A program made the translations under genes and the position numbers. Shown one piece after another: positions 30,901 to 62,368 of a DNA stretch of 64,000 bases (within the stretch, counting starts at the first letter, position 1; each line of letters starts with the position of its first letter). The stretch is taken from contig CM067062.1 of assembly GCA_033980235.1 (NCBI GenBank), positions 7,419,900 through 7,483,899 on the forward strand, read 5' to 3'. The DNA is from Diadema setosum. Lineage: Eukaryota > Echinodermata > Echinoidea > Diadematoida > Diadematidae. The notes under the pieces are model-generated. The model saw only the letters and a list, made by a program, of their open reading frames with translations, had not been told where the DNA came from and made no database searches.

Positions 30901-33900
30901 TTGAAGCCATCCAGGATGGCCCTGTAGCCAGTGCATCGACAGAGGTTCCCCTCAAGGTGGCGTAGGATGTCCTGGACACTGGGCGAGGGGTTACTTCGCA
31001 GCAGGGCGTACATGGACATCACCATACCGGGGCTGCAGAACCCACACTGAGAACCATGGCTCTTGGCCAACCTCTCCTGGCAATTCGATACATAGACAGT
31101 GTCTTTGTTTAGTAATTTATCTCCTTTCACAGTTGGCCCATTTTTGGGTGGGGCTGATGTGCTGATGCAAGCAGACTTAAGCTACTGAGGGTACATTTTA
31201 ACTTTACTGCATTACACAAGTCAGGTGTGTCAATATACATAATTTATTTTCTATCTGTAACATAAACAAATTCATTGCATCCATAGACAAGAAAGAGATG
31301 ACATAGAAAATATCACACTACTTCCAATCCTTTCACTCTATGTAGACAGTTAACCCGTTGAGGACAAGTCCCGAGTATACTCAGGCAGGTGTCTATGCGA
31401 AATGCGCGTTGTAGCAAAATCAGTCCGTCCTCAACGGGTTAAAGGTAGATTATGGATTGCTGTTTGCTCTCTTCCTGCCTGCATTCATATGCTCACCTGT
31501 ACAGCGTGGAGTCTGGTCCGGGCACTGCCTATGCCCTCAATGGTGGTCACTGCCTTCCCATGGAGAAGGCAGATTGGGGTCAAGCAGGCCATGACTGATT
31601 TGTGCCTAGTACGAAGAAGTGTATAACATCCATGTAACCAAAGGTACTACGTGTATAATATCAATTCATCTTGTAAGAGACTTTATTGGGGAAATACAAT
31701 ATGGTTTTATAGATACACACTGTCAATACATAATTCCTACAAGTTATAGCTGTGATAAAGTACATACTGTACACATGTATTGATAGATTTATCAGGTTTT
31801 AAGTTCAACTGACTGAAAAGAGTGTGACCCATCAGCAAAAAAGCATTAAACTAAAGTCTCTGCATGAGCTTTGATATTCTATTGGCATTCTTGCAACCCT
31901 TCTCACTTCAGCCTTTCCAATGATAGACTTAGTGGTACACTTTACTAGTACTTCAGAAGAAGTAAATCACTATAAATACACTGTGAGCACAATTTTGAGA
32001 AATAAATTATAATGGCTTTCAAGTTTACATGCTGTCATGCATGAAGGGATCCTAACATGTGCAATCTTCACCTCTGAAATTCTTATCAAAAGAGTGGTAG
32101 TTCAGGTTATCATAGATCAAATTTTGAATAACATCAACTTTAATTTCTCAGTGTTCAGCCAACTGCCTATATTTTGCAGTTTAACATTTGTGCTTCCAGT
32201 TATGACTTTATCAGAGTAACATATTGTGGGCCACAAATGTTGTACAGCTGGAAAATGACCATATTTGACAAGCTGCATCAGAGGAACAGGGCTGAAACAA
32301 TTAAGTACCTGACTGCTCGTGTCTGGGGGTGCACATCTGACACCATGACGGTGCATGCACCACATCCTCCCTCGCTGCAACCCACCTTGGTTCCACATAA
32401 CCGCACTGACAAATTGCAGTCAAGGAAAATAGCCACGACCGATATGCTAAAGGTACAACTGTACCTACACATGTTTATATCAGATGTGTAAATGGGCAAT
32501 TCCGCAGTAACGGAATTACAAATCAGAGAATTTTGGCTCATATTCTTTCACCCTGTATACTGGATTGATTACTTTGCCTTCTCTTGATACATTTAACCCT
32601 ATTCTAACTGGGGGGGGGGTCAAATTGACCCCCCCCCCTCGACGTTTCGCGCCATGATTCCGCAACGCGCAAAGATTTTGCCGCGTCGTTTCATGACTTT
32701 TTTTCATTCGAGTCTCCCGCATATTTTGAGACCAAATTTGTGACGTCCGGGTACACCGTTCTGAAGTTATGCAATGTTTTGCATATGCATGTCAACCTGA
32801 AAAACGCTCAAATTCATGATTTCGTGTGCAAATCCAATGCAAACTGTGTTTTTTTGTTTAATTGATATAAATTAGATTAACCATTGAATTAAATCAATTC
32901 TTAATGTAGATAAGCTTGAAAAAGTGCCTCCAACAAATTTTGGCAAAAAAACAATAGAAAACAAAAGATCGAAAAAACAACGAAATACATAAGAAATTAA
33001 CAAAACAATAAAAAACAAAATAAAATGATTTTGATTGCGCTATTTTTTTACTAGAAAATTATTTGATGTGTCTTGAGGAACTCTGACACAAAAATTTAAT
33101 AATCCTTCAGTCTTTTTGATGGAGTTATAGGTGAAAATATGATTTCATGCGTTAATTTGCATAATTAATTTATTTAAAAATATGAAATCAAAATTTTTCT
33201 ATTGTATGACCATGTAATCTTGTAGTTGACATCCGGCTCTATGTTCAGGCAAAATTTTGCGGCAATCACGCGATCGGCGGCCGAGATCTGAAGGGGGGGT
33301 CAAATTGACCCCCCCCCCCCCCAGTAAAAACTTGGTCTCAAATAGCCCAGTTAGAATAGGGTTAAAAGATGCAGAGGTACTCACAGTGTCACACCAAATA
33401 CAAATTTGTTAAAATGTTCTCACTTCGTTGGTTACAAAGGAGGTCTATGTGTGATACTAACGGAATTACCAGAAAATTTAGTCACAACTTCAACTCTGAC
33501 TTTGGGAGTTGTTTCTCTGAAATCTATAACACATACACTATAGATTGTTGTCTGATTTCATCTTTGACTATGTCAACTTCAATTTAGTTGTATTGTTTTT
33601 CAAATATTTCATCACATTTTCCAAGCAGCAGGATTTATCCCTGTAAAGTCAGTGGTAACGGAATTACACAAATGGTAACTGAATTACGCCCTCTGAAATA
33701 CACTGGAAAAAATACACATTCTTGGTACTCATGTATTCTGAAATGTCTTGATAAAGATTGTCTATGCCTTTTGCTGTAATATAACCACTAAATAAGTACT
33801 CTCTAGCCTTTGACCTTGAACTGCTACAAGTGTATAGGTGCCAAAAGAGTTTTTATTGTCAAAAAACATGAAAATGTTCATGCTAACGACTGTGATTTGA

Positions 33901-36900
33901 AGTTGTAACTATGTCAATCAAGATCTTGTAACTTCTAAGTACCACATCCATCAAAATGTATCTACTTTCAAGTTCAGAATTTCACACTCTGCAGGTAAAT
34001 GACATCTAAAGATACATGGTAATGGAATTACGCTAGAATAGCCCTACACATTCAAGTACAATTCTATAAATCCAGTCAACAATACTCAAATTTTCTTGTA
34101 TTTCTTTTGTTGATATCATGCAAGACAGATTTCTCTGTTTTCTTCTCTTAAATATGCCAATAACTGACAGTATGTGTGAATTACTTACAAGTATTGTACA
34201 AAAATATCATGTGCACATGCATAAGAAAATAATAAAAAAACTGTCTGGATTGACACTGAATCTAAATCTAAATCATAAAGTGCCAATTCACAGTGCGAGA
34301 GCACAGTGTGCAGCCCCATCATTGAACACAATGTTTAATATTAAGAATGAACACTAAGGATGCTTGAAACTTTAATTTGTAAAGTGAAAAGATGCAGTTG
34401 TGGCTCAATGACAAATATAACAAATTGCAATTCAATCATAAATTGAATAGAAAATGTTCGTATATGATAATGGTACTGCGCCAGTGCTCAATCATTATCA
34501 TTTATTTGTATTTTATCATTATTATTTATTTGTATATTATTTATATGTTGTGGCATATATTAATCACTAAAAACTGTTGACATTTTACTAATAGCTGAAG
34601 TTGCCCCCTGGTTATAATGTAGTGCATAATTTGATAATTCATTTTACAGTGTAAGTCCTACTTAAGCCTACCAAAATAAAATGAACTAAATTAAAAAGAA
34701 ATTGAAAACAGCAAAAAAAAAAAAACTTTAACAAACTACAACTTTTTGAACCTTTAGAGTGAGTCCACCAAATTCTGTTAATTCATAGAAAGGTAAGAGG
34801 GCCTCTTTTATCCATCTGCATCTCACTGTGTTAGAGTGAGATTACTCAACCTGTGAATAATGCTTAAATAGTACAACGTCTGACCACACAAACTTTCCAA
34901 ATGACATCTTCCCAAACACGACAGTGATTTGAGCAGTGACTGTAATCGTGACTTGGCCTATACATTTCCTGTAAGTTTCCTGTCTCTGTCTTTCTTCCTT
35001 GACTTTGTCTATTTTCTCATCCTGAGTGTTGCCATATTTTTACTCACAAGAAGTGTGTTTCTTTTCTTTTGTAGTAACTTGTATTTTGACTGCCTGAAAG
35101 CAAATTATAAAATACACTGCAATGGCACTTGTATGAAAGGAAACTGGATTGTACAGCAAATGGTAACATGAAGAGTAAAGGGAGAAGCAGAAGCCCATTG
35201 ACTTTAATATTCAAAATCTTCTTAGGACGGGAAAGTATAGGCCTAAATGTTACATTTTAGAGCTGTATAACAATTACTGACTGGGTAGATGTTCATCACA
35301 AATGGTGTTTTTGTCTTTATTCCTAAAGGATTAAAGAACAAATTTCAAAGGGTAGCAGATGCTCTGTATCAAATGGGCATGAAAATCAAAATACATACAT
35401 GTCTCTGTGGAGGAAAGATCTAAGAAACAGATGAAAGAAGGTCATAGTCACACACTTACCATTAAAGATAAAGGACTTGAGGATGAAACAGGACATGTTC
35501 AATAAAAGGTCAGACTATCGACTTGGTGATAATAAAGCCTTTAGCATACAGAAAGATCAAAGGTGTCACATTCAGTGGGCATCCTGTGTCAAGTAATGAT
35601 TTCTATCACATTGTGTATGATCTTTCTCTTAAATTTTTGATCTTTCCTCACAAAATTATCCTGTTCATTTCTCTCTGTCAGTAGCAGTGCTCTCTTTTCC
35701 TTTTAAAGAAATTTTAGGTCCTTCCTCTTCTTTCTAACCTTTGTTCAATTTATGCTGCGTCCAACACACCCATTCAATAGTCTCTCATCACTATACTTAG
35801 ATTTTGTATGAAACCATGAGACTTTTTAGCAAGAAAACATACATTTGATATCTCAGAATTCAGTATGATTTTTAACATTTGGGCAATTCCACGGTACCGT
35901 ATGTAGGACACAGATGCCGAAAATTCAAAATGATATTTGTTTCAAACACCATACATTTTCAGACAATACTTGAGTTGAGTTTTAAGAATCATTATGTTTT
36001 TCAATAAAAGCGGCCATTTTGATTTTCAAAATGGCTGCCAAAAATGCCTATAACTCAATGGTAAGAAAGAGTGTATTGTCACATAATTTACCCTCTGTAT
36101 ATCCACTTTACTAGTACTATAAACAACAATCTTTTATATGTATGCAGTTACCAGACGAGTCTTTTACCACATGATAGAAAGAAAAAGCTGGTTGCTTTAA
36201 AGAATTTTATAAAAACTGTTAATTAGTTTGACAATGATGGATGTAACGTCAGTTACCAAAAACAAGGAATTTTTAACTTTATTCATCAAAGAAAGTGAGC
36301 TGTATGATGTAACTTATGATTTCTAATGTATGCCCATATGCCTTCCTTTCAATACCAGAAAATAAGGATACTTGGCATACTGGAGAGTCAAATGAACACA
36401 TCAAAATGTGTAACGTCAGTTACCGAAACGTCATATACCAGTATGTAACGTCAGTTACCATGTCAGTAATTATATAACTTAGGCAAATGTTTTTACTTTA
36501 GGCCATTTCAATACATCTTGGAACTTTGATAGGGAATGATGTCATCACCATGGTACACTGTATGTGGGCAATTCCACGGTAACTCGCGTTACAAATAATG
36601 GGTACATTTATGGGATAATGTGCCAATATCTTCGTAATTGGAAGGATCCACCAGTTACTTTTTTTCATCATTGGTTAAGTAGACATACACCAACTAAATG
36701 AATCCAAAAAGAAAAATAAAGGACAAACATGTTGGGATTCTTGAATCATCTAATTTTGGTAACTCGCGTTACACAAAAAGGACATGGTCAATTCTATAAA
36801 GGCCTCTTTTTGGAAAGTCTCCTCATACTAGACAATCCTGATAAAAGTTTTCCTACCTTGAATTGATAGTGGGTTAGGACTCATGAATTGACACTATCAA

Positions 36901-39900
36901 AGTTGAGTAACAATGACCTGGGGGGCATTTCATGAAGGAACTTGTCGGATAAAATATCTGACAAGTCAATTATATCCGACAAGTTTTGAGAAATTCTTTA
37001 GTCTGATTGGCTGATTTCTCTGAACTTGTCGGATATAATTGACTTGTCGGACATTTTATCCGACAAGTTCCTTCATGAAACGCCCCCCTGGTAAAATGTA
37101 GGGAGCCTTTATATCGGTAACTTGCGTTACGGTAACTCGCGTTACATTATGTCCACTAACACAGGGTGACACAAATTGATGACATACAACTGTTCTGATG
37201 GCACTGAATCTTGTGTTGAATATTTTGAGAGATGCTTAGTACATAGTAAAATGAATAAATGTTAAATAAATATTTTACTAATCAACCCAATTGATAGAAA
37301 AGAATGTGTTTAAGACTAAAAAGAGCTTCACTCCTCATAGAGACCCTGAATATGTTTCATATATACCCAGATTACACTATAAGTACATACTTTTCAGAGT
37401 GTAAAAATGAAAGATGTTGAAATTTTTAAAAAACAAAACATAAAAGTATCAAACCCTATCGACAAGTTTACAAAAAAGCCTACAATCTTTCAAAAATTAA
37501 AATCCTGTCTTTTTGAAAACTTTAATATCTTTGCAACTGATTGACAAATAGACCAGTTCGTAATTCCACTTTGCGCATGAGCAGAAAAAGTTCATTTGTA
37601 CCAACAGGCATTTTGGTTTGTAAATTCACTGATATAAGTATCTGTGATGCGATGATTATTCATGTGATCCTTATCTAAATGATGCTTGCCAGCACATCCA
37701 CCTGACAGCAAGAATGGTATTTTGCAATATAAAAGGAAATAAGCTGTTACTGCATTCAATACAAAACAATGAAATGGATGCTTGCTAAATTGTAAACTGA
37801 TGGGAGTGTTCTGATCCCCTGATTCAAATGCAAGTTCATTCTTTTTCTGAACATGAATTCCATAAATTGTTATGTCGGGCAAGTTTTATGCATTATGCCG
37901 CTTTGAAAAAGAGTGAAGTGCCGAACCAACTGAGAGAAAAGAAAGGTCATTTGTACCAATGTATACATGAGCTACAGTGTAATTTCGAACTGGCTTATTA
38001 CCCTACATCAACTTAAATTCATTAAGCACTCAATTGATCAGTGTTTTAGTAGTAGCTATGATAAAAAAAAAAAGTCATGGGCGTGCATACTCGAGCAGTA
38101 TTCGAACTAAGACCTCCTGATCTCCGGACGGGCATCATCTCGTAACTAGACCACCGAACTTCCGCCCGACAGGAAGTGTTGGTTCTAATCCTTATATCAT
38201 GCAGCGGGTACTGCGTAATTATTCAAATTCATGAAATCCTTTCGTTGAGATGTTATTATTGCAACTAATTGACAAATTACACTACATCAACATAATAAAA
38301 ACTGAATTGATCAGTGTTTTATTAGTAGCCATGATAAAAAATCATGGGCACACATACTTGAGCAGGCCGGATTCGAACCCACAACCTCCTGATCTCCGGA
38401 CAGGCATCTCCGGACAGGCGTCATTTTCACTAGACCACCGAATAAGGATTAGAACCAACACCTGCTGCTTTATAGCATTCTGTAATAAAAATTCTGTAAT
38501 ACTAATGCAAGAATTTCAGAAGATAAATTTTAGGTTAACCTCGTTCACTGCTGGATGTACATGTACACATGCAGTGAAAGCCTGGCTAGACTCCTCAATG
38601 TGGCATGTGATCAGTGGCCTTGATGCTAGTATACAATCACAGTTTATTAGGCTACTCTCCTTTGTTTCAGTCCAGCATAGTATGTATAACACTAGATTTG
38701 ATTGTTTTCACCATAATATAGCTCAATTAAGTGTTAAAATTTGCTTACGTTGGTGGAAACTTGTGTTTATAGTCGGTAACTCGCGTTACATGGTAACTCG
38801 CGTTACACTTTTCATTGACAATTTTTAATGTGATGACAGTGTTTATTCAAGTCAACATCCTGTGTACAGTATCAGGGTGTAATGAATTTAGAAAATTATG
38901 ATTCCCAACAAATTACCTCCTCTGCTTCCCTCAGAATGAAAAATATTTCTTGTTTCGGTAACTCGCGTTACATGGCTCAAGGGCTGAACTTTAAGGTGAT
39001 GATAAAAATTTTTTGAAGGTGGTATAGAAATTTTCTCATGGGAGACTGAAGTAGAACCAATTTGCTTCTTTAAAATGAATTAACTGAAGTGTTAGCAGAA
39101 TTTTTCTTTAAAAAAAATGTATATTAAGTTATGCATGCATTTTAGCAATTTGGATGACTGAACTAGATATATCGCTACGGCTACTGATATGCCTCCGCCA
39201 TAATGCATGGTTCTCCTAATAGGTCTATAGTACAATGTCTTGACAATGTGTGATGACAGTTTCACACAAGTGGCAAAATATTAAAATGACAGGTTTGACA
39301 CAAATGTGCTGAATGTTCACTTTCCTAGAACTAGGTTCAATTGGATGAATGATTAAAATGTCAGAGTGCAGGTACTTGGGGAACTGATGATTTTTACTTG
39401 ACTTCTGACCCTTTTATAAGTTTATGCATTGAGTAATTTTCAAGGTATTGAGAAAAAGCATAATTTCAGTATCAAATGGGAAAATAGCATTATCTAAACC
39501 TGGCCTTTGACCTTTGACCTCACAGTTCCAAAGAGAATCACTGTTAGGTTGAACATGCATAAATATGTAAGTTTCATGATGATACCTTGAGTTACTTTCG
39601 AGATATGGAGGAAAAAGTGCAATTTAGCACTTTCACTTGACCTTTTACCTTTTGACCTTTGACCTTTCGGCAAGAAACTTCCCCAATAATATATATTGGG
39701 TTATACATGCCATACATCAAGTTAAAAAAAAAAAAAAACCTTCAGGCATATTGCATTTTAAGGAAAGTACTGATATTTTGAGGAGTTGACCTTGACCTTT
39801 GACCCATGACCCCCAACTTCCCTAGATAATCATTGCCCATTGGTACAAGCATATATACTAAGTTCCATGAAGATACCTTGAACCATTTGCGAGATATAGA

Positions 39901-42900
39901 GAAAAACATGAAATTTCAAATTTTTTTTCACAAAATAACCTGTGACTTTTGACCTTTGACCCAGTGACCCTAAAATTAAAACAAAGTATTATCCCCCAAG
40001 GATATACCCTCATACCAAGTTTGATGTAAAACCACCACACGGTTCTTGAGATATCGACAAAAACAAAACGGGACGGACGGACGTACGGACGGACGGACGG
40101 ACGGACGGACGACCCGAAAACATAATGCCTCCGGCCACTTCGTTGCGGAGGCATAAAAATTGTCTTGAACATTTGTAGATGTTTCTCGGGAAATATTTGA
40201 CCGATTGATATAATTCTTTGAGTTTCTTCAACTTCAATATATGGATAATACATAATGAGTAATTCTTTTGCAATATAATAAACTTGAAATTTTAGTTCCA
40301 TGTCCACATTCCCATGGAATTGCCCATGTCCATGGATACATTTTTTTTTTGTTCATTTTATCTTATTTCTTTTCTTTTTCTTTTTTTCTTTTTTTTTTGG
40401 TGGGGGGGGGGTTGAGCTTTTGATTTTCTGTTCAACACAAGTTTAAGGTTTAAATCATCTGGAAGTTTAGGTTTACCACATGCAATAATGCACTCAAATT
40501 ACTATACAGTACATTCACAGTCCTATGGGATGATAAAGCTACCAAATTTGTAGGCCTAATCAATGATGTGGTTGCATGGTAACCACCTTTTTCTATTAAA
40601 AAGCTTGTGTACAGCTGTATACCAACAGTTTTATAATCTTTACTAATGACTACTTTTGCTAGCATTTTTCTTTTTTTCTGGAAGCTTAGTGAAGTTTCTA
40701 CCTATTCCTCTAAAAGGCAAATGCAGGAACAGTTTCTTCGCTTGCACTTAAATGTGTGGTTTAGTTAATATGGCACATCTTGAAATGGTACATAAGCAGG
40801 CCTGACATAAGGCATGTACTGTCATTACTGTTTGAAACTAACACTGATGTTGCTCAACGTTTAACACTGATGTTGCTCAAAGTGAGAGGTGATTCTAGGG
40901 TAAAATAAAAAAAAAATGTTCATATTTGTTGATTACTTTATTTCATTCATGCAGGGACATTTTTGTAATACATGATAATTATGAACAGGAAGATTCGTTT
41001 ATATTGATCTCAGAATTCTTTCATCGCAATGTTGTATTTCTTGGTATCTGGGATGTATTTGCAAGCATTGATATACCAGTGAAAAGGAAAAGAAAAACAA
41101 TTACATTCCTTCAAGCAAGGAATAAACAAATAATGCCCTTTTGACCAAAATAGCATGATTCTTCTTCACAGAAAAAAATATTAAAAGTGTAACACTATTC
41201 ATCTAAATCATTATTGATAATGGAGATCATTTTTTTTTTATTTGTGGCCCTAACAATGCCTTGAGGGAGAAGGAGTAAAATAAAGAAAAGAAGAAAGAAT
41301 ATATCACAGTAGATTTCATACATATATAGGCCCTATGAATATTTTTATTTGTATGTGTTTTTTCCCCATGATCTGAAAGATATTTTTTTTTTTCACGCAC
41401 AAAAATATCTGTGTTTTGTGTAGTACTGCAGGGCATTATGGGTGGGGTACTCTAGATAGAAACTTTCCTGTTCATTTAAAAAAAAAAACCAACAACAACA
41501 AAAAAAAAAACCTTAGTTATGTCAATATTCATACTTGGAACTGCTGAATCTAAATGGCTCTGTGTAATCATAACTGTTGAATAAGCATTCAATCTTAAGA
41601 CAAATGTCAAAAAATATCCTCTGGTGCAGTTACATTATTTTTGCTCTTAACTGTGCTATGGCATGGGGGGGGGGGGGGGGGGGGGGGAGATTGCCCCCTA
41701 AGGACCCCATCCCATTTGTGTCTTTAGATTTTGTTTTAATTTGTTGCTAAGTAAATGCCTGGGATTGTTACTGGTATACTGCAGCAGTATAACCTGTTAA
41801 ATAAATTAGTTCTTTGTAAACCCCATAGCAAAAGTATGTGTAACGTCAGTTACGTAACGTCAGTTACGTAACGTCAGTTACTGACATGTTTCCCTTTAAG
41901 TTTTCATTAAACACAAAGAAAATAGACTAATGTTTCATTTCATTTGGGTATTTGTAATTGATGAACCAAGGTATGATTCCATATCAAACAAATCACTCTG
42001 AAAGATCAGAATTATAAAATATCACAAAACTATTCCTAATCATGATTTTCCATGTGTAAACCCTATGGCAAAGCGTAACGTCAGTTACCGTCATGCCTTC
42101 ACTGAAATTGGCATGGTGCTAAAAGGAAATATCTAAAGTGCACATTATTTTGCACAACTGTTCCTAAGAACCTAGGTATATTGTCATATAAAACACATTA
42201 TAGAGTTTAGAAGTCAGGGACATGAGATATTTCCATTTAAATCTACACCATAATTTCCCATGTCCTTTTTCCGTAACGTCAGTTACCGACACATTTTCAC
42301 TTGCTATGTGATAAGGAATGCAGTTTGAGAGAAAAACTTTCTACCTATTTCTTCATTCTCATGAACTCATTCATCAATGCTAATTACAAGCCCCAGGTGC
42401 TTTCATTCACAAAACTACAACATAAACAATTTCATGAAAATCCTTACGCGTAACGTCAGTTACCGTGGAATTGCCCATTTGAGGATGAGTATCTTTAGCA
42501 AACCTTATAAAGTTATCAGTTAGCACAGTCTCCGTGTAGTTCTTGTGAGAAAAGGTGAAAGAAGGGAGGAGACTTTCAGCACAAGAAGTTTTGTCAAGCG
42601 TGTACCCTGATGTCAGGACTCACTGTCAGAGGCATCCAGCTACAATGTATTCTGAGTCATGTCAGTGTATCATACCATTTATATTTCAACTTTCACTCCT
42701 TTACTGCCAATCACTAACACTGTTAAGCCCAATAATAATGCCCTGAAGCTTTTTCATGAACACTTCACATACATATTGGCACGAAAGTAGGTTATGTCAT
42801 TCTCTTCCATAGTAGATGTGCATGTAACTTCGTTACCATGTAATTCCGTTACCACAATTACAGAAGAACTGAAGGAGATATTTCACAAAATGTTTTGTGA

Positions 42901-45900
42901 GTTTTCAGGGAGTCACATGTAGAGAAAAAATTTACAAGGGGAGAAAAAATCAGTGATTAGTTTGTTCAGGAAAAAACTTTTGTCAATTTTATGGTAACGG
43001 AATTACGTCAATTTGTCTGTAGATTTTGAAAATTTCTCCAAAAAAAATATCATCATGAGAGTTATTGAATGCTTCATAAAATGTGATTGTTGAAGCATAG
43101 GAAAAAAGATGAGGAAGTATGGATAAAGCAGAGAGATATTTAAGTTGTTTCATTTTAAATTTTAATTTGATATTGTAAAATTTTAGATAAATACAATAAA
43201 TAGTCTTCCAACTTGAAAAATGTGTACAACAAAAACGAGGAAAGTTATTGGAAAAGGGTTTTTTGTTTCCGTAAATACAACAATCCGTCTGTACGGGAAA
43301 CTTAAATTTCTGAGCATTTACTTAACTTTGAATTTTGCTGTTTTTGCCCTTCCCATACGGAATTGCCCAATTACATAACATCAACATGAGTAACGTTTAT
43401 TCTTCAACCAAAATCCATGATAAACATTTAATTAGAGCCAGTCATAGCCTCCACTAAGTCAAAAAGGGGCTTGAAAATTTTTACACATTTAAGTACCCTA
43501 ATTTGGATGCAAAGACAAATATTTCAATGTTTCAGATAGGACTCACAATAACATATAATATGATTTTTTTTTTTTTTTTACATGTAACTTGGCTGAATCT
43601 TCTTTGCAGTCTATGTTGATCAATTACCAGAGTTCTTTCATGACAATAATATGCAGATGAAATGATATGAAGCAAAGTATTCAGTTTACACTGTAATAAA
43701 ATCAGTGTAGTTGGATGGGTCAATTTATCGTATGAACACTTTCCATCTTTTACAAAACAAGACACTGAAATTGACATGACATTTTTGGACTCTTGTGCGT
43801 TTGTTGTTCTTGTCAATGATTTTACAAAAGGATACACTTCCCCCTCAGGTAAGTTGCCAGGTTCATCTGTGGATCTGCATCTTTTTCAACAATCTGCAAC
43901 ATAAGAATGCATAGATACAGTCTCATCATTACAAAATATATGTCACCGGTAATGACCCTGTAGTGTATTTGTTTAGCTACCAAAACAAGACCCTATTGGG
44001 AATGGAGACAACTAAAGCCATGGTCACAGTCCGACTTTATCTGGCTTTTGATTAATATGCAGCATGAATGCATTAAATAGGCTTGAAAATATTTGTGAAT
44101 GTGCATCACAAAACTGACACCCCTTGACTTCACGCAAGGACTCAAAAATAACAGGTCAACCAAGTCAACACTTAGTTATTCATATTTTCTTAAAGAGCTA
44201 CCCTTCTTCTAACATTATTCTTAATTTTGGGATCATGGAATGAATGGGAAAGTGCATTTTCAGTACTTTTTCTACAACCCTTTTTTTGTAGAGTAGTGAG
44301 ATCAGGTATGTCTTTAGAGGCCCCTTTTCATTTCTTGATAACCCTTTGCACACTCTTCACTTTCAAGTCTGATGGCATTTGAAGGGATAATGCTACTCAT
44401 TTCATTTCATTCATTTCATTTATTTATTGTCCATAAAATGGAAAATTTTTGTGATTGAATTGGCATACAATGTACATGTATAGATACACATATAAAACAC
44501 ACATTTCAGAACGAAGCACAGAAAATAACAACACACATCATTAATTCATATAAAGTAACACAGAGAAACTTAACACTCAGCAAAGGAGGTTCCAGAGAAT
44601 GGAGTCGCAACCGTCTTATTTCCTTTGCTACAGTGTACATGTTCGATGCCGTCGCTCAAAAATATTTGAAGCATGTGCCAAACAGGATCTGCCACGCAGA
44701 TAGTAAGACAATTGACTCGTGTCTCATTGCATAATCACTAGCCACTTTCTTAAGGAAGATATGTCTTTGTGACGGTAATTACTTATCGCTATCCCTTCTT
44801 ATAAAAGATAGGTGGTACAGACACGAGGATGTGCAAATGGAAATTGCGCAAAAAATGCTGTTCGAAAATAAAGATGAAAATTACCCAACTGGGCATACCC
44901 GAGCTCTAATCTGATATATCTATCAATAAAGAATTATACTTGAAGATTATTCCATGCTAGTTTTATTTGTCGGAATTTAGTGGAAAAGTGATAAAACCGG
45001 CTTTCCAGGATAGTACAGTTTTAAATATTTTCACACGATACAGCGCTGATTTACAATTTTGAACAAATTTCTGTACGGGATTGACTTTTGCTTTACATGC
45101 TTTATCATTAAGTGAAATTTCATGTCATTTGCAACAAGGAAAAGTAGAAATTACGCAGTGCGTAAAATATGTCCCCGCCGGAAGTAGCATTTAGAAGCAA
45201 AATGTACAATATCGGTAAAAAATCAAGGTCAAAGGTCAAAGAAGTCAAAGGTCAAAATTCTGTGTAGAAGTTTTGAAGCCCTCACCTAGTGCCATCACAA
45301 AAAGCAAACGGAATCGAAAACGGGTTTTGATAGAAATGGCGAAGGAGTAGCATTTTGTAGCCAATTTATAATATAGGTCAAAAATCAAGGTCAAAGGTCA
45401 AAAAAGTCAAAGGCCAAAATTCTGTGTAGAAGTTTTGAAGCCCTCACCTCGTGCCATCACATAAAGAAAACGGAATCGAAATCGGGTTAGAAATGGCAAA
45501 GGAGGAGCATTTTGTAGCCAATGTACAATATAGGTCAAAAATCGAGGTCAAAGGTCAAAGAAGTCCAGGGTCAAAATTCTGTGTAGAAGTTTTGAAGCTC
45601 TCACCTACAGAGTGTAGTGCCATCACATAAAGCAAATGGAAATGAAATTGGGTTAGAAATGGCAAAAGAGTAGCATTTTGTAGCAAAATGTACAAGGCAG
45701 GTCAAAAATCAAGGTCAAAGGTCAAAGAAGTCAAAGGCCAAAATTCTGTGTAGAAGTTTTGAAGCCCTCACCTCGTGCCATCACATAAAGAAAACGGAAT
45801 CGAAATCGGGTTAGAAATGGCAAAGGAGGAGCATTTTGTAGCCAATGTACAATATAGGTCAAAAATCGACGTCAAAGGTCAAAGAAGTCCAGGGTCAAAA

Positions 45901-48900
45901 TTCTGTGTAGAAGTTTTGAAGCTCTCACCTACAGAGTGTAGTGCCATCACATAAAGCAAATGGAAATGAAATTGGGTTAGAAATGGCAAAGGAGTAGCAT
46001 TTTGTAGCAAAATGTACAAGGCAGGTCAAAAATCAAGGTCAAAGGTCAAAGGTCAAAGAAGTCAAAGGTCAAAATTCTGTGTAGAAGATTTGAAGCCCTC
46101 ACCTAGTAACATCACATAAAGCAAAAGGAATCGAAATCGGGTTAGAAATGGCAAAGGAGTAGCATTTTGAAGCAAAATGTACAATATAGGTCAAAAATCA
46201 AGGTCAAAGGTCAAAGAAGTCAAAGGTCAAAATTCTGTGTAGAAGTTTTGAAGCCCTCACCTAGTGCCATCACATAAAGCAAACGGAATCGAAATCGGGT
46301 TAGAAATGGCGAAGGAGTAGCATTTTGTAGCCAATGTACAATATAGGTCAAAAATCAAGGTCAAAGGTCAAAGAAGTCAAAGGTCAAAATTCTGTGTAGA
46401 AGTTTTGAAGCCCTCACCTAGTGCCATCACATAAAGCAAACGGAATCGAAATCGGGTTAGAAATGGCAAAGGAGTAGCATTTTGAAGCAAAATGTACAAT
46501 ATAGGTCAAAGGTCAAGGTCAAAGGTCACAACTGAAATTCTGTGTAGAAGTTTCAAAGCTCCCATGTAGTGCTATCATATAAAGCAAACAGAATCAAAAT
46601 TGGCTCATAAATGACAGAGAAGTAGCAAATTGAACATTTTGATCACACACGGACGCACAGACAGACAGACAGACGGACGGACAGACGGACACACGGACAC
46701 ACACACGTACGGAGCCCGTTTCATAGTCCCCTGCTCGAACTCGTTCGGCGGGGACAATAAATAAGCAAAATACGGCCAATATTATGTTAACGTTCAAAAT
46801 GAATCTTCAGATTGCTCAGCAACACGGCGGCTCCGAACAGCAATCATCAAAGGCACAAATGCACCTATGAAATTCTTTTGTACATCAATTACCATCACAT
46901 CTTCCTTAGAAAGTGGCTGGTGATTATGCAATGAGACACAAGTAAATTGTCTTCCTATCTGCATGGCAGATCCTGTTTGGCACATGCTTCAAATATTTCT
47001 GAGCGGTGGCATCGAACATCTAGCAAAGAAAATAAGACAGTTGTGACTCCATTCTCTTGAACCTCCATGGTCCTATGCTGACCATATGTTGTTGGATGAG
47101 AACACCCCCACAGAAACATACATCACTGATCCTATACATAATAGATCTCGCCATTCCACAAACATTTCCAATAAATTTCTGTACTCTTCTCCATAATCCA
47201 AATTAATAAAACTAACCAACAACAGCTGTGTCATCAACATATTTCAGAAAAAAAAAAAACTGTGCTGCGACTGAACTGAAAACACTGGTCAGCAAGAGTG
47301 ACAAGAACATAATGTCAGGAATTAATATAATACGTACACATGTATCCTAGGCTGACCACATGTTGTAGGGTAAAAGCTAAAAACACCCTACAGAACATAA
47401 TACATCCTTTCATTCATCTATACACATCAAAATTGTTATTGGAAATGAAACAAGCAAAGAAATTCAAAAACCTACTTAATTCTGCCCCTGGAAAACTTTA
47501 ATCTCCCACTCCTCATTTACAGATAATTCTCCAAAAAAAAAAAGGGGTGAGTTACACATGAGACAATACTCAACTTTCCTAATAATTCTCTGTCTGTAGA
47601 TGTCATCCCATTCATACATGTATTGCACACCAGTAATTTTGCTTGCTTATTTCAGTGCCCTTGTGATTTGAGCAGTTTTCCCTTTCCTAAAACTGCTATG
47701 CCAGACCACACATCCAAACATCAATATACTCTTCACTACTTAGGAGTAGAACAAAAAATGTAAAATGGTGGTATTAACATGTAATAATCTCAATTTCCTT
47801 AAAAGATATTATACAAATAACTTATGAGTTGTGAGTGCATAGGGCACGAATATCGCACGAGGCGCAAGATAAGCCACTGGTATAATATATTATTCAACAA
47901 GGCGCGTTGAATAGACCAGTGGCCAGTCCTTAAAAGATATTATACAAATAACTTATGAGTTGTGAGTGCATAGGGCACGAATATCGCACGAGGCGCAAGA
48001 TAAGCCACTGGTGACCAGTCCTTAAAAGATATTATACAAATAACTTATGAGTTGTGAGTGCATAGGGCACGAATATCGCACGAGGCGCAAGATAAGCCAC
48101 TGGTATAATATATTATCATCTATATAGGATGTTTTAGCGGCGCATTAAAAACGCGTATTGTAGTCCGCTCAATTTTTACCGTTCAATATCGGAGCATATT
48201 GAACGAATCGCATAGACCAACGTATTGATTCCCCATAGGCTACCGTTGTTAATTGCCGTTCAAGATCACACGATATTCAATTCTGTCTCGTTTATTGCGT
48301 GAGCGCTTGCTGAATGCGCAAATGCTTGCTACTAAGTGCGCGTCATTTTGTTACATTTTTCACACGCGCGCAAACATCTTGCTAGTTGTTTGTTTCAATA
48401 CGCAGTTTTAGGGGCTTCCCCTTTTCAGCGCTGGGATGGGACTGCCGAGTCAACTTCAAAGATAAGTAGAAGCCGGGTAATTTTGTGCAGTTCATGGTTG
48501 CTCTACTTCATTGTATAGATGATAATAATTATATTGGATGGCCTTGATTCATGGAATACCAGGGAATATTGCACTCGTTAGAGTCAATATTGCACTCATC
48601 TTCGATTCGTGCAATATTGGCCCTAACTCGTGCAATATTCCCTGGTATCCCATTCATAGCCATCCAATATAATATAATTATTCAACAAGGCGCGTTGAAT
48701 AGACCAGTGGCGAATCTCGCGCCGAGTGCGATATTACGTGCCCCAATGCACGAACAAAATCATAAATTATTCGTTTTATACAACACCTTAATTGTCCACA
48801 ATCACAGTACTAAATTGGTGACCGCCAACTCAGGAAGGCCCAAAAAAAAATGTAACAATTAGGCCGAGAATTGTAAACCACCCAGTGTACTGCTTTCAAA

Positions 48901-51900
48901 CACCCGTCATGATTCGACCACACAGTCACACTACAGGATCGGAATCACAAACTCTGCAGCCGCAGGGTCTATACCCATTCTACACTAACGTTACGATCGA
49001 GTTAGGCCCGACTGTTAGGCCGATCTGAGATGTCGGTAGACTACTAGATCTAACGTTTAGTAGTAGGTCTAGACTTTGTCTATTTCCGAAAATTATTTTG
49101 TATAAAAACACAGAAAAATAATCAAATTACAGTTTCTCAACTTGAAATGAAGTCTTCATTTTGGGATCACTGTGGTCCACGTAGCAGATCAGAGTCAAAA
49201 GTAACAGTAAAAACACAGCCGTAGGTAAGGCCGCAATACATGCAACTAGCTAGGTAAAGTAGCTGCGCTTACACGTTGACGTTGCTGCAGTACTCCGCCG
49301 CGCCTAGTCTGTGCTATGTGAGACTTACCGGCAGCGCAGCCGGCGACCAGCACGTAGTTTGCTGGCGCTTTGCTAATGTGAGCGGCCGTGCAATAGTAGC
49401 CCCCCGCGAAGCCGTGCTATAGTACCTTTGAGCCGTGCAATAGGCCCATGCCAGGGGCCTATTGTATGGCTGTCACTCTCAATGAGTTTGATAGGTATTT
49501 TCTATTGAATGTCATGTGACATGTTCTTGGCCAATCACAATTCGACATCATTCTAAGGTGTTGTATAATATGTTCTTTATGCACACTTACTGACCAGTCC
49601 GGTGCAATATTCGTCCCAATTAAACTTGCTCTCAATCACCATACCCAGATACTTATCACTGTCATAATATTCTAGGCTATCCACATATTGTTGGATGAGA
49701 TCACCCCCACAGAAAACATACATGTACATCACTGATCATTCCATTATCTACAACTGTACATATTAAAAATTCTTATTCAAAATAAAAAAAAAAAAAATCC
49801 AAAACCTACTTATTCTGCCCCTGGAAGACTAGTCTTCTCCCACTCCTCATTAACACATAATTCTCAGAGGGTGATTTGCACTTAAAACTATATACCTGTA
49901 CTCAACTTTTCAAATAATTCTCTGTCTGTAGATGTCAACCCATTGGTATTGCACACCAGTAATTTTGCTTGCTTGTTTCACTTGTGATTTGAGCAGTTTT
50001 CCCTTTCCTAAGACTGCTATACCAGACCACACATCGAAACACCAATTATACTCTCCACAACTGAGGAGTAGAACAAATGTAAAATGATGGTGTCAACATG
50101 GAATGATCTTAATTTCCTTATAAAGAAATGCATTCTTTGTGCACACTTACTGACCAGTCCGGTGCAGTGTTCCTCCCAATTTAAACTTACTGTCAGTCAC
50201 CATACCCAGATACATACAAGGAAAAGTAGAAATTACGCGGTGCATAATATATGTCCCCGCCGGAAGTAGCATTTTGTAGCAAAATGTACAATATAGGACA
50301 AAAATCAAGGTCACAGGTCAAAGAAGTCAAAGGTCAAAATTCTGTGTAGAAGTTTTGAAGCGCTCACCTAGTGCCATCACATAAAGCAAACGGAATCGAA
50401 ATCAGGTTAGAAATGGCGAAGGAATAGCATTTTGTAGCCAATGTACAACAAAATGTAGGTAAAAAATCAAGGTCAAAGGTCAAAGAAGCCAAAGGTCAAA
50501 ATTCTGTGTAGAAGTTTTGAAGCCCTCGCCTAGTCCCATCACATAGAGTAAACGGAATCAAAATCGGGTTAGAAATGGCGAAGGAGTAGCATTTTGTAGC
50601 AAAATGTACACTACAGGTAAAAAATTAAGGTCAAAGGTCAAAGTTCTGTGTACAAGTTTTGAAGCCCTCACCTAGTGCCATCACATAAAGCAAATAGAAT
50701 CAAAATCGGGTTAGAAATGACGAAGGAGTAGCATTTTGTAGCCAATGTACAATATGGGTCAAAAATCAAGGTCAAAGGTCAAAGAAGTCAAAGGTAAAAA
50801 ATCAAGGTCAAAGGTCAAAGAAGTCAAAGGTCAAAATTCTATTAGTACAAGTTTTGAAGCCCTCACCTAGTGCCATCACATAAAGCAAACAGAATCGAAA
50901 TCGGGTTAGAATTTTTATAAGTAAATGGCGAAGGAGTAGCATTTTGTAGCAAAATGTACGATACAGGTCAAAAATCAAGGTCAAAGGTCAAAGAAGTCAA
51001 AGGTCAAAATTCTGCATAGAAGTTTTGAAGCCCTCACTTAGTGCCATTACATAAAGCAAACAGAATCGAAATCGGGTTAGAAATGGCGAAGGAGTAGCAT
51101 TTTGTAGCAAAATGTACAATATAGGTCAAGGACAAAGGTCACAACTGAAATTCTGTGTAGAAGTTTCAAAGCTCCCATGTAGTGCTATCATATAAAGCAA
51201 ACAGAATCAAAATTGGCCGATAAATGACAGAGAAGTAGCGAATTGAAGATTTTGATCACACACGGACGCACACACAGACAGACACATGGACACACGGACG
51301 CACGGACACACACACACGTACGGAGCCCGTTTCATAGTCCCCTGCTCGAACTCGTTCGGCGGGGACAATAACTAACATAGCATCCTATATGCTTTCCACA
51401 TATTGTTGGATGAGAACACCCCCATAAAAAATAAACATCACTGATCCTTCCATTCATCTATACGTACAGTCAAACCTGTCTATAGCGGCCACCTAAGGGA
51501 GACGGAAAAAGTGGTCGTTATAGACAGGTGGCCGCTATAGACAGGTAATCCAAATTTGTGTGCATTCCTTACATGTACATCGTATCATCGTTGTATCCTT
51601 ACACGTACATGTATGTGTGTACGCATATGCACACACCGTGTGTTTCATGCATTTAACCATGCCTGTGTATATGAAATTGTTGCACAGTAGTACTGTATAT
51701 GTGTATTGTTGTGAAGAAGGCTTAATACTACTAGTGCATTATAATGACTCAATTTTAAGGGATGAATGAGTGGTGGCGATCACTGAACGTTGCCCGCATG
51801 GCTACAGAGCAGAAAAACACGCTGAATTATCGGCTCGGCTATGGTTCCATTGGGTCTTTGGCCGCTATAGACAGGTTAAAATCTACCGCGGGAAACAAAA

Positions 51901-61380: not shown

Positions 61381-61462
61381 GTAATAAAGGTTCTTTATTT
61401 GCGTGACTGTGCATTCCAGGTGGGTAAATATCTCTCAGGAAGCTCCTACAAAGTTCCCAAAG

Positions 61463-62368
61463 ATGTCGGATAACGCAGAGATGACAATGGAAGAAGCTCT
61501 TTGGTTCAGTAGTGACGTCTTGGATGTGACGTCACCGGAGAGTAGGCTCAAAGCCGATCGTCCAACTTTCCTCCAGGACCTGATAGACGCCTGGATACAA
61601 CGTATACCTTTCCAGTCGGTCAGCGCGATCGCTGTGCCTCAGCATCAGCGGCACCTGCCTTCCTTTGAAGAGATAAAGAAAGACGTCTTCGCCAAAATAG
61701 GCGGACTCTGCTACGTCCATAATGTCTTCTTCTGTGTTTTCATGCAAACCTTGGGATACAACGTGACCCTTGTTACATGTGACATCAGCTTCGCAGATAG
61801 CCACGTCATCATTATGGCGCATAATCTCACTTCCGAGGGCAGTATGCACATGGTCGACGTCGGCAGCGGCTACCCCACGTTCACAGCCGTCCCGTGTGAT
61901 TTCGAGCGCGAGTCTCCCGAGTACCATGATTCATTTCTCCGCTACAGATTCGTCCGCGATGGGGACCTTATCATCCGCCAGCATCACGCCGACACCGACC
62001 CGAGGGCAGCCCTATGGCCGGACCGTGTCAAGGACGGCTGGTATTCTTTCATTTACATCCACTACAAAGAGCCAAAGAAAATATCCTACTTCGACGCCGT
62101 CATGACGCGGATTTACACCACCGTGCTGCCGTCACCTCCCTACCTGTCAAGCCCCCGCTGCATGACATGGCCCAATCGCCGCCTAGTCTGCATCAAGGAC
62201 GCCACCCTTCTGCAAGAGATCGAAAAGGGGCATGTTCAAAAGTCGTATTTCCGATCTCCAGATGAAATTGTGACAGCGTTTGCGAAACATTTTCCTGACT
62301 TTCCCGCCGATATAGTCAAGGCCACATGGGACGATGAACACGTTAAATGTGACTTTACCAAAGAATAA
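61463..62368 (+). CDS. Arylamine N-acetyltransferase-like protein
   Basis: Intronless 301-codon frame. Family role: transfer of acetyl from acetyl-CoA to arylamines or hydrazines through a Cys-His-Asp triad, in the cytosol. Seen: RIPFQSVS at 48-54 (family IPFEN-type region); Cys83 in IGGLCYVHN (family RGGxC); His114 in DSHVIIM; Asp132 in HMVDVGSGYP. Spacing Cys-His 31 and His-Asp 18 differs from human NAT (39 and 15), so the loop between the first two is short. NRRLVCIKDATLL at 238-250 fits the C-terminal domain. Length is close to the usual 290. I chose ATG 61463 (AAAG before it); the frame is open upstream to 61403 but has only a GTG there. An upstream non-coding exon is possible because an AG follows a pyrimidine run near 61365. 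Substrate cannot be told. Confidence 0.9.
   Translation: MSDNAEMTMEEALWFSSDVLDVTSPESRLKADRPTFLQDLIDAWIQRIPFQSVSAIAVPQHQRHLPSFEEIKKDVFAKIGGLCYVHNVFFCVFMQTLGYNVTLVTCDISFADSHVIIMAHNLTSEGSMHMVDVGSGYPTFTAVPCDFERESPEYHDSFLRYRFVRDGDLIIRQHHADTDPRAALWPDRVKDGWYSFIYIHYKEPKKISYFDAVMTRIYTTVLPSPPYLSSPRCMTWPNRRLVCIKDATLLQEIEKGHVQKSYFRSPDEIVTAFAKHFPDFPADIVKATWDDEHVKCDFTKE

Follow-up and report, generated by a model that had tools for sequence, protein, structure and literature searches.

Family-private sites on a shared subterminal map in four related transposon families of Diadema setosum

Transposon families that share a genome have to distinguish their ends from the ends of related families, and how they might do so is the question raised by a nest of three elements in Diadema setosum. 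The nest lies in a 64,000-nucleotide stretch of DNA (assembly GCA_033980235.1, contig CM067062.1; C4:7419900-7483899 in our numbering of contigs), referred to here as the window; element G3 sits in G2, which sits in G1. The sequence GGGCAATTCC occurs six times in the window, against 0.11 expected, and the six occurrences are the six proposed ends of the elements. Each element also carries its own short motif, M1 (GTAACGGAATTAC) four times exactly in G1, M2 (GTAACGTCAGTTAC) nine times in G2 and M3 (GTAACTCGCGTTAC) six times in G3; none of the three was found exactly in another element or in the 53,125 bp of flank of the window. The nested elements and a fourth family, G4, represent non-autonomous cut-and-paste DNA transposon families that are related to one another and have in common 10-bp ends and 4-bp target-site duplications (TSDs). 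We consider it likely that their motifs are transposase-binding sites, predicted to lie at fixed positions in a somewhat Hermes-like manner and to have diversified in specificity.

The initial annotation had proposed, from the letters of the window, three related transposons nested in this order, and the genome (885.7 Mb, 96 contigs) bears this out. The end pattern GGGCAATTCCNNNGTAAC, which is GGGCAATTCC followed by NNN and GTAAC, was found 497 times, versus once for the reversed pattern. In 30 elements, drawn like all fetched copies mainly from contigs C1-C4, both ends could be paired; all have GGGCAATTCC at both ends (one end of L042 with one mismatch), and 26 are flanked by exact 4-bp TSDs. 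These 26 show an A/T bias, and 17 of them have T at position 2; the exact duplications that had been read for G2 (ATTT) and G3 (ATGT) are both present. Relatives of the insertion sites point the same way: with one duplication removed, the G2-in-G1 junction aligns to the G1 consensus at 113 of 118 positions without interruption, and the G3-in-G2 junction likewise runs through in the G2 consensus (66/83, with 13 gap columns). The consensuses are 3442 bp for G1 (7 copies), 2787 bp for G2 (18 copies) and 2613 bp for G3 (6 copies); those of G1, also as used for the junction, and of G3 include the window's own copies, and that of G2 was built without it. Nineteen of the 21 aligned rows differ from their consensus by just 1.3-5.8%, which, for the families, contradicts the description of the surrounding DNA as decayed. 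The two outliers are L033 (12%, inflated by a nested insert) and the window's G2 (10%, inflated by a different middle). The latter belongs to a subfamily, G2b, which is the best match for 20 of 47 probes taken from the interior of single-ended places. One further place, L048, is compound: G2 pieces lie in it in either orientation, which looks like one copy nested in another.

The privacy of the motifs extends beyond the window. In 32 copies (7 G1, 19 G2 and 6 G3), M1, M2 and M3 occur exactly 50, 162 and 34 times, all in their own family, and no exact motif was found in another family; with one mismatch allowed, M2 was found twice in G3. Thus the absence of each motif from the other elements, noted at first for the nest, holds for these copies as well. 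Genome-wide, M2 was found 1,836 times versus 18 for the reversed pattern, and on reading, none of the places among the matches listed stands alone. The reported excess of GTAAC-spacer-GTTAC is also real: GTAACN{3,5}GTTAC occurs 17 times in the window versus 0.15 expected. The statement that the motifs are nearly always exact stands for G2 (9/9 sites in the window) and G3 (6/7), but not for G1 (4/8). The lower exactness of G1 fits its being the outermost and oldest element; by the same measure G2 and G3 are too alike for their order to be told.

Within the copies, the motifs are less changed than their surroundings, as had been suggested. In 18 G2 copies, differences from the consensus outside CpG affect 1 of 1,533 motif cells versus 754 of 44,679 elsewhere, and at CpG 6 of 371 versus 60 of 639. 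Randomly placed windows equalled the motifs in conservation in 21, 0 and 27 of 2,000 draws for G1, G2 and G3, respectively (7, 8 and 6 copies). When only private non-CpG differences were counted under strict masking (7, 18 and 6 copies), the motifs had 6 in 2,370 and the remainder 670 in 60,978; at each family's own rate, 23.9 would be expected in the motifs. Observed and expected private changes were 4 and 9.0 in G1, 1 and 9.0 in G2, and 1 and 5.9 in G3. The terminal site was excluded from the random-window counts, the private-difference counts and the G2 consensus-difference totals, because the copies had been chosen by that site.

Each family has 8-9 family-private sites of 13-14 bp. There are four site types, in which GTAAC, usually preceded by G, is followed by GGAATTAC, TGACGTTAC, TCGCGTTAC or GGAAGGAC. 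The constant half of the terminal site is turned towards the left terminal repeat, and in the consensuses all G2 and G3 sites have this orientation; inverted sites occur near the right end in G1 (2/8) and G4 (2/9). The same is seen in the window, where all sites of G2 and all sites of G3 face one direction and the full motif adjoins the terminal repeat at one end only of each element. At the right end of G2, GGTAAC adjoins the terminal repeat and the second half is absent; in G1, G3 and G4 no site adjoins the repeat at that end. The initial annotation had read the sites as GTAAC/GTTAC palindromes that may bind a dimeric transposase, with the spacer setting which family's protein binds. The GTAAC half is indeed shared, but the other half varies: the G4 motif GTAACGGAAGGAC has no GTTAC half, and the second half of G1 is ATTAC. 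Because G4 lacks GTTAC, the model of a symmetric dimer site whose spacer encodes the family is too simple; judged from the motif sequences, a site in two parts, one half common and the other diversified, is the better fit. The earlier observation is therefore confirmed and its interpretation partly supported.

The sites also keep their places. Measured from the left end, site centres lie at 20, 200, 398, 418 and 760 in G1, at 20, 197, 392, 406, 617 and 631 in G2, and at 20, 199, 387 and 402 in G3; measured from the right end, they lie at 366, 520 and 536 in G1, at 364, 531 and 566 in G2, and at 367, 532, 549 and 569 in G3. The common map is thus ~20, 197-200 and 387-418 on the left and ~364-367 and 520-574 on the right; on the left, G2 and G4 also have a site at 617-631 and G1 has one at 760. 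In most copies the positions are within a few bp of the map. Missing, extra or slightly shifted sites were seen in L033, L038, L041, L042, L050, L051, L053, L054, L058 and L059, and the window copies depart from the map through later insertions. In 200,000 trials, made before G4 was known, no random placement of clusters agreed as well as the observed one; the analyst decided how near sites were merged and set the range at 60-800 bp. The filler between the sites is barely alignable between families, with z of 0.2 to 3.2 versus shuffles among G1-G3 and of -0.6 to 4.5 against G4 (4.5 for the G3-G4 right end). The larger of these values suggest that the families descend from a distant common ancestor.

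G4 served as a test of the map. It was founded on an interior probe of L091, a stretch that matched no family and carried repeated GTAACGGAAGGAC. The left end of G4 (L103) is GGGCAATTCCACGGTAACGGAAGGAC, and its sites are at 13, 192, 390, 404 and 617, plus 1454, 1476 and 1497. A right-end site was predicted ~365 bp from the end before the letters were read, and it was found at 366; the right end falls at element position 2035, with sites centred 574, 552, 532 and 366 bp from it. Eight of nine sites are exact in this copy, and the one complete copy has the duplication TACA/TACA. The G4 motif end was found 17 times in the genome, versus 0 for the reversed pattern. Probes placed inside 8 of the 16 other G4 places matched G4 in 7 and G3 in 1; in L114 (C10:500066-500186) the interior of a G4 copy matches G3, probably a further doll-in-doll insertion. 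None of 2,000,000 sets of random clusters matched a template made from G1-G3, the limits of which were drawn after G4 had been seen and the third left cluster of which came from G2 alone.

We also searched for coding sequence and for further families. No transposase-like coding sequence was recognised in the nest or in the family consensuses. The 74 stop-to-stop pieces of at least 48 aa from the nest gave five weak Pfam matches, one piece each (best E 0.0029, zn-ribbon), and the longest consensus frames are 151 aa in G1 (plus strand, from 0-based position 1954), 96 aa in G2 and 147 aa in G3, where shuffled maxima average ~88 aa. L033, L032 and L049 contain large open reading frames (ORFs) that, on reading of the proteins, resemble LINE and BEL-type genes; a frame in L084, taken for a Penelope-like element, had no Pfam match above the cut-off. 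Of the 47 interior probes, 40 match G2, G2b or G3, one founded G4 and six had no match; two of these six (L078 and L101) are G3 copies by their left ends. Three places (L003, L063 and L122, C1 ~3735109-3747490) form one G2 copy of ~12.4 kb, its right end estimated from the sites, in which both site arrays are present. Its insert begins near consensus position 1003 and has a frame of at least 152 aa, of which the 133 aa searched were not recognised by Pfam (best E 0.85); a 600-bp sample of the insert has no frame above 88 aa. The insert may represent either an autonomous relative or a retroelement nested in the copy. As for new families, the terminal inverted repeat (TIR) joined to a 14-bp palindrome with a spacer beginning in a base other than T gave one match, a mutated M2; TIR-NNN-GTAAC followed by NNY gave one match; and M2 ends with other following bases gave one match, L062, a G2 copy with inserted bases. 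These end patterns are blind to G4, and a complete set of families is not implied by G1-G4.

On the reading that we favour, each family would have an autonomous partner whose transposase binds the sites; one part of this protein would read the common GTAAC half, and a diversified part would read the second half. An oligomeric complex may be loaded on the left end through the site at 13-27, next to the left terminal repeat, and the spaced internal sites; capture of the right end would follow. Such a transposase would work like Hermes, with further sites at set distances adding contacts. The families would be of common ancestry, their recognition halves and filler changed and their map kept. Since the map was kept while the halves and the filler changed, the constraint is probably on position as well as on the motif. 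Family-private sites would stop coexisting families from moving each other's copies.

Several observations weigh against binding by family-specific transposases at fixed positions. Among the places examined, no autonomous partner with a transposase was found. G1 fits the map least well: its left pair is 20 bp apart and the others 14-15, the inner sites on its right lie at 520 and 536, and in place of the site that G2 and G4 have at ~617-624 it has one at 760. The right end of the G2 copy L034 is shifted by ~20 bp, some G2 copies carry one or three tandem sites, and the full map of G4 comes from one copy. The deficit of private changes consists of few events in copies picked for intact ends. 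At CpG, private changes number 13 in 618 in the motifs versus 40 in 1,118 elsewhere, and in G2 the rate is not lower in the motifs (4/362 versus 3/629). CpG positions in the motifs do mutate, which shows that the motif is open to mutation; the pattern is more in keeping with selection for movable copies than with protection of the DNA.

The spacing could also be inherited rather than constrained, a weak ancestry being detectable in the filler (z up to 4.5). We regard as rather unlikely, however, that the agreement of positions stems from a shared ancestor alone: the filler is near background, and insertions and deletions should by now have shifted the sites by more than a few bp across several intervals of 165-195 bp. 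It is unlikely, too, that a separate accessory or host protein, a regulator or a silencer, binds the sites in place of the transposase. The reach of the sites, 570-760 bp from the ends, is beyond the known contacts of most transposases and would suit such a protein; a common host protein, on the other hand, would leave the family-private motifs unexplained, and in all four families a site is found at position 13 beside the left terminal repeat, where Hermes transposase binds a quasi-palindrome (PMC10368747). Tandem copy number does vary among G2 copies, as expected if conversion within an element or tandem duplication kept functionless motifs alike. We consider this very improbable, as single sites 190-193 bp from the left end and ~365 bp from the right hold their place across families, and matching positions amid almost unrelated filler are not explained by it.

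Known systems were compared for likeness. hAT elements have 8-bp TSDs as a rule, and the 4-bp TSDs found here speak against hAT; on reading, the six flanking bases show no longer match. Plant CACTA elements (Spm/En), whose two ends hold a short protein-binding motif in many copies, resemble G1-G4 in this repetition; their subterminal repeats are dense and in both orientations, and their TSDs are 3 bp. Kolobok and piggyBac share the 4-bp target duplications, and both use TTAA (PMC9587614). TTAA makes up only 2 of the 26 exact TSDs, and both were excluded because there is no TTAA preference. For Hermes, PMC10368747 describes two subterminal repeats beside the left TIR (LE11-27) that form a quasi-palindrome and take two BED domains, a right end bound by no BED domain, 8-bp target sites, and five short repeats within the outermost 55 bp of either end. 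The site at 13-27 in G1-G4 likewise adjoins the left TIR only, the same place and the same one-sidedness; different from Hermes, the TSDs are 4 bp and the sites are sparse, at similar distances out to ~570 bp.

By duplication length and AT bias, the nearest lead is Sola2; membership is not established. In Dictyostelium and Polysphondylium, Sola2 elements have 4-bp AT-rich TSDs and TIRs of 12-21 bp (PMC3627910), and G1-G4 resemble them in their AT-biased TSDs and short terminal repeats. AWWT, however, accounts for only 7 of the 26 exact TSDs by the analyst's count (the AWWT rule in that text is from amoebae and may not hold for other hosts), a fixed subterminal site array is not mentioned in the text available, and no transposase was found in the copies examined. 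We regard it as doubtful, though a real possibility, that the elements belong to the Sola2 group. One 18-bp end pattern had no match in viral contigs, and a longer one had none in prokaryote genomes. Six spellings of the three motifs had no match in the literature searched; for GGGCAATTCC and other strings, the matches listed look from their titles like unrelated sequence.

The coordinates of the nest are given in Table 1. In G1 all left sites after the first, and in G3 those at 37117 and 37132, are displaced by a nested miniature inverted-repeat transposable element; the right-end sites of G3 are farther from the right end than in the consensus, probably through later insertions. Within G1, 32597-33361 is a nested element of ~765 bp with inverted CCCTATTCTAACTGGG ends between TTAA duplications, where the G1 consensus has a single TTAA; we take it to be piggyBac-like from its ends and target. 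Within G3, 36916-37092 is a near-perfect palindrome (arms of 79 nt, 92% complementary) that is absent from the G3 consensus. Elsewhere in the window there are two tandem arrays with similar units of 157-162 bp, in which GGTCAAAGGTCAA is abundant (45183-46528 and 50265-50800), a reverse transcriptase ORF at 1641-2666 (Pfam RVT_1, E 1.5e-11) and an arylamine N-acetyltransferase-like single open frame at 61388-62368 (Pfam Acetyltransf_2, E 2e-14). Rfam (gathering scores) and tRNA scans across the window gave no match.

Table 1. Elements, target-site duplications and motif sites of the nest (window positions)
Feature	Position	Strand	Details
G1 element, outermost	32494..43368	+	own DNA 32494-35880 and 42477-43368; GGGCAATTCC at both ends
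G1 left TSD AAAT	32490..32493	.	right copy 43369-43372 is AATT, one mismatch
G2 element, within G1	35881..42476	-	motif-bearing end is the right one; GGGCAATTCC ends
G2 left TSD ATTT	35877..35880	.	right copy 42477-42480, exact
G3 element, within G2	36566..40325	+	motif-bearing end is the left one; GGGCAATTCC ends
G3 left TSD ATGT	36562..36565	.	right copy 40326-40329, exact
G1 left sites, GTAACGGAATTAC type	32507..34031	+	starts 32507, 33457, 33655, 33675, 34019
G1 right sites	42824..43006	.	42824 (-, 2 mismatches), 42840 (-), 42994 (+)
G2 left-end sites, element orientation	41840..42463	-	42450, 42273, 42075, tandem 41868/41854/41840
G2 right-end sites, element orientation	36243..36458	-	36243, 36410, 36445
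G3 left-end sites	36579..37145	+	36579, 36759, 37117 (1 mismatch), 37132
G3 right-end sites	38776..38971	+	38776, 38793, 38958

The gaps of 165-200 bp recall, at a guess, nucleosome spacing. Tentatively, and with somewhat less than an even chance of being right, we propose that these transposons form a eukaryotic lineage, perhaps belonging to an undescribed group, in which about nine sites, spaced ~165-200 bp apart over a long range, would make up a conserved map for assembly of the transpososome. Nucleosome spacing may set these gaps. Recognition of one half of each site would be swappable between lineages with the map kept, so that families sharing a genome would not mobilise one another's copies. 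The four coexisting families are a natural experiment, with the same terminal repeat and map and four different recognition halves. They make it testable which part of the transposase sets specificity, and whether spacing over hundreds of bp, and perhaps nucleosomes, belongs to end recognition. Different tags at near-equal distances suggest that the enzyme can change the tag it reads while keeping its mode of assembly.

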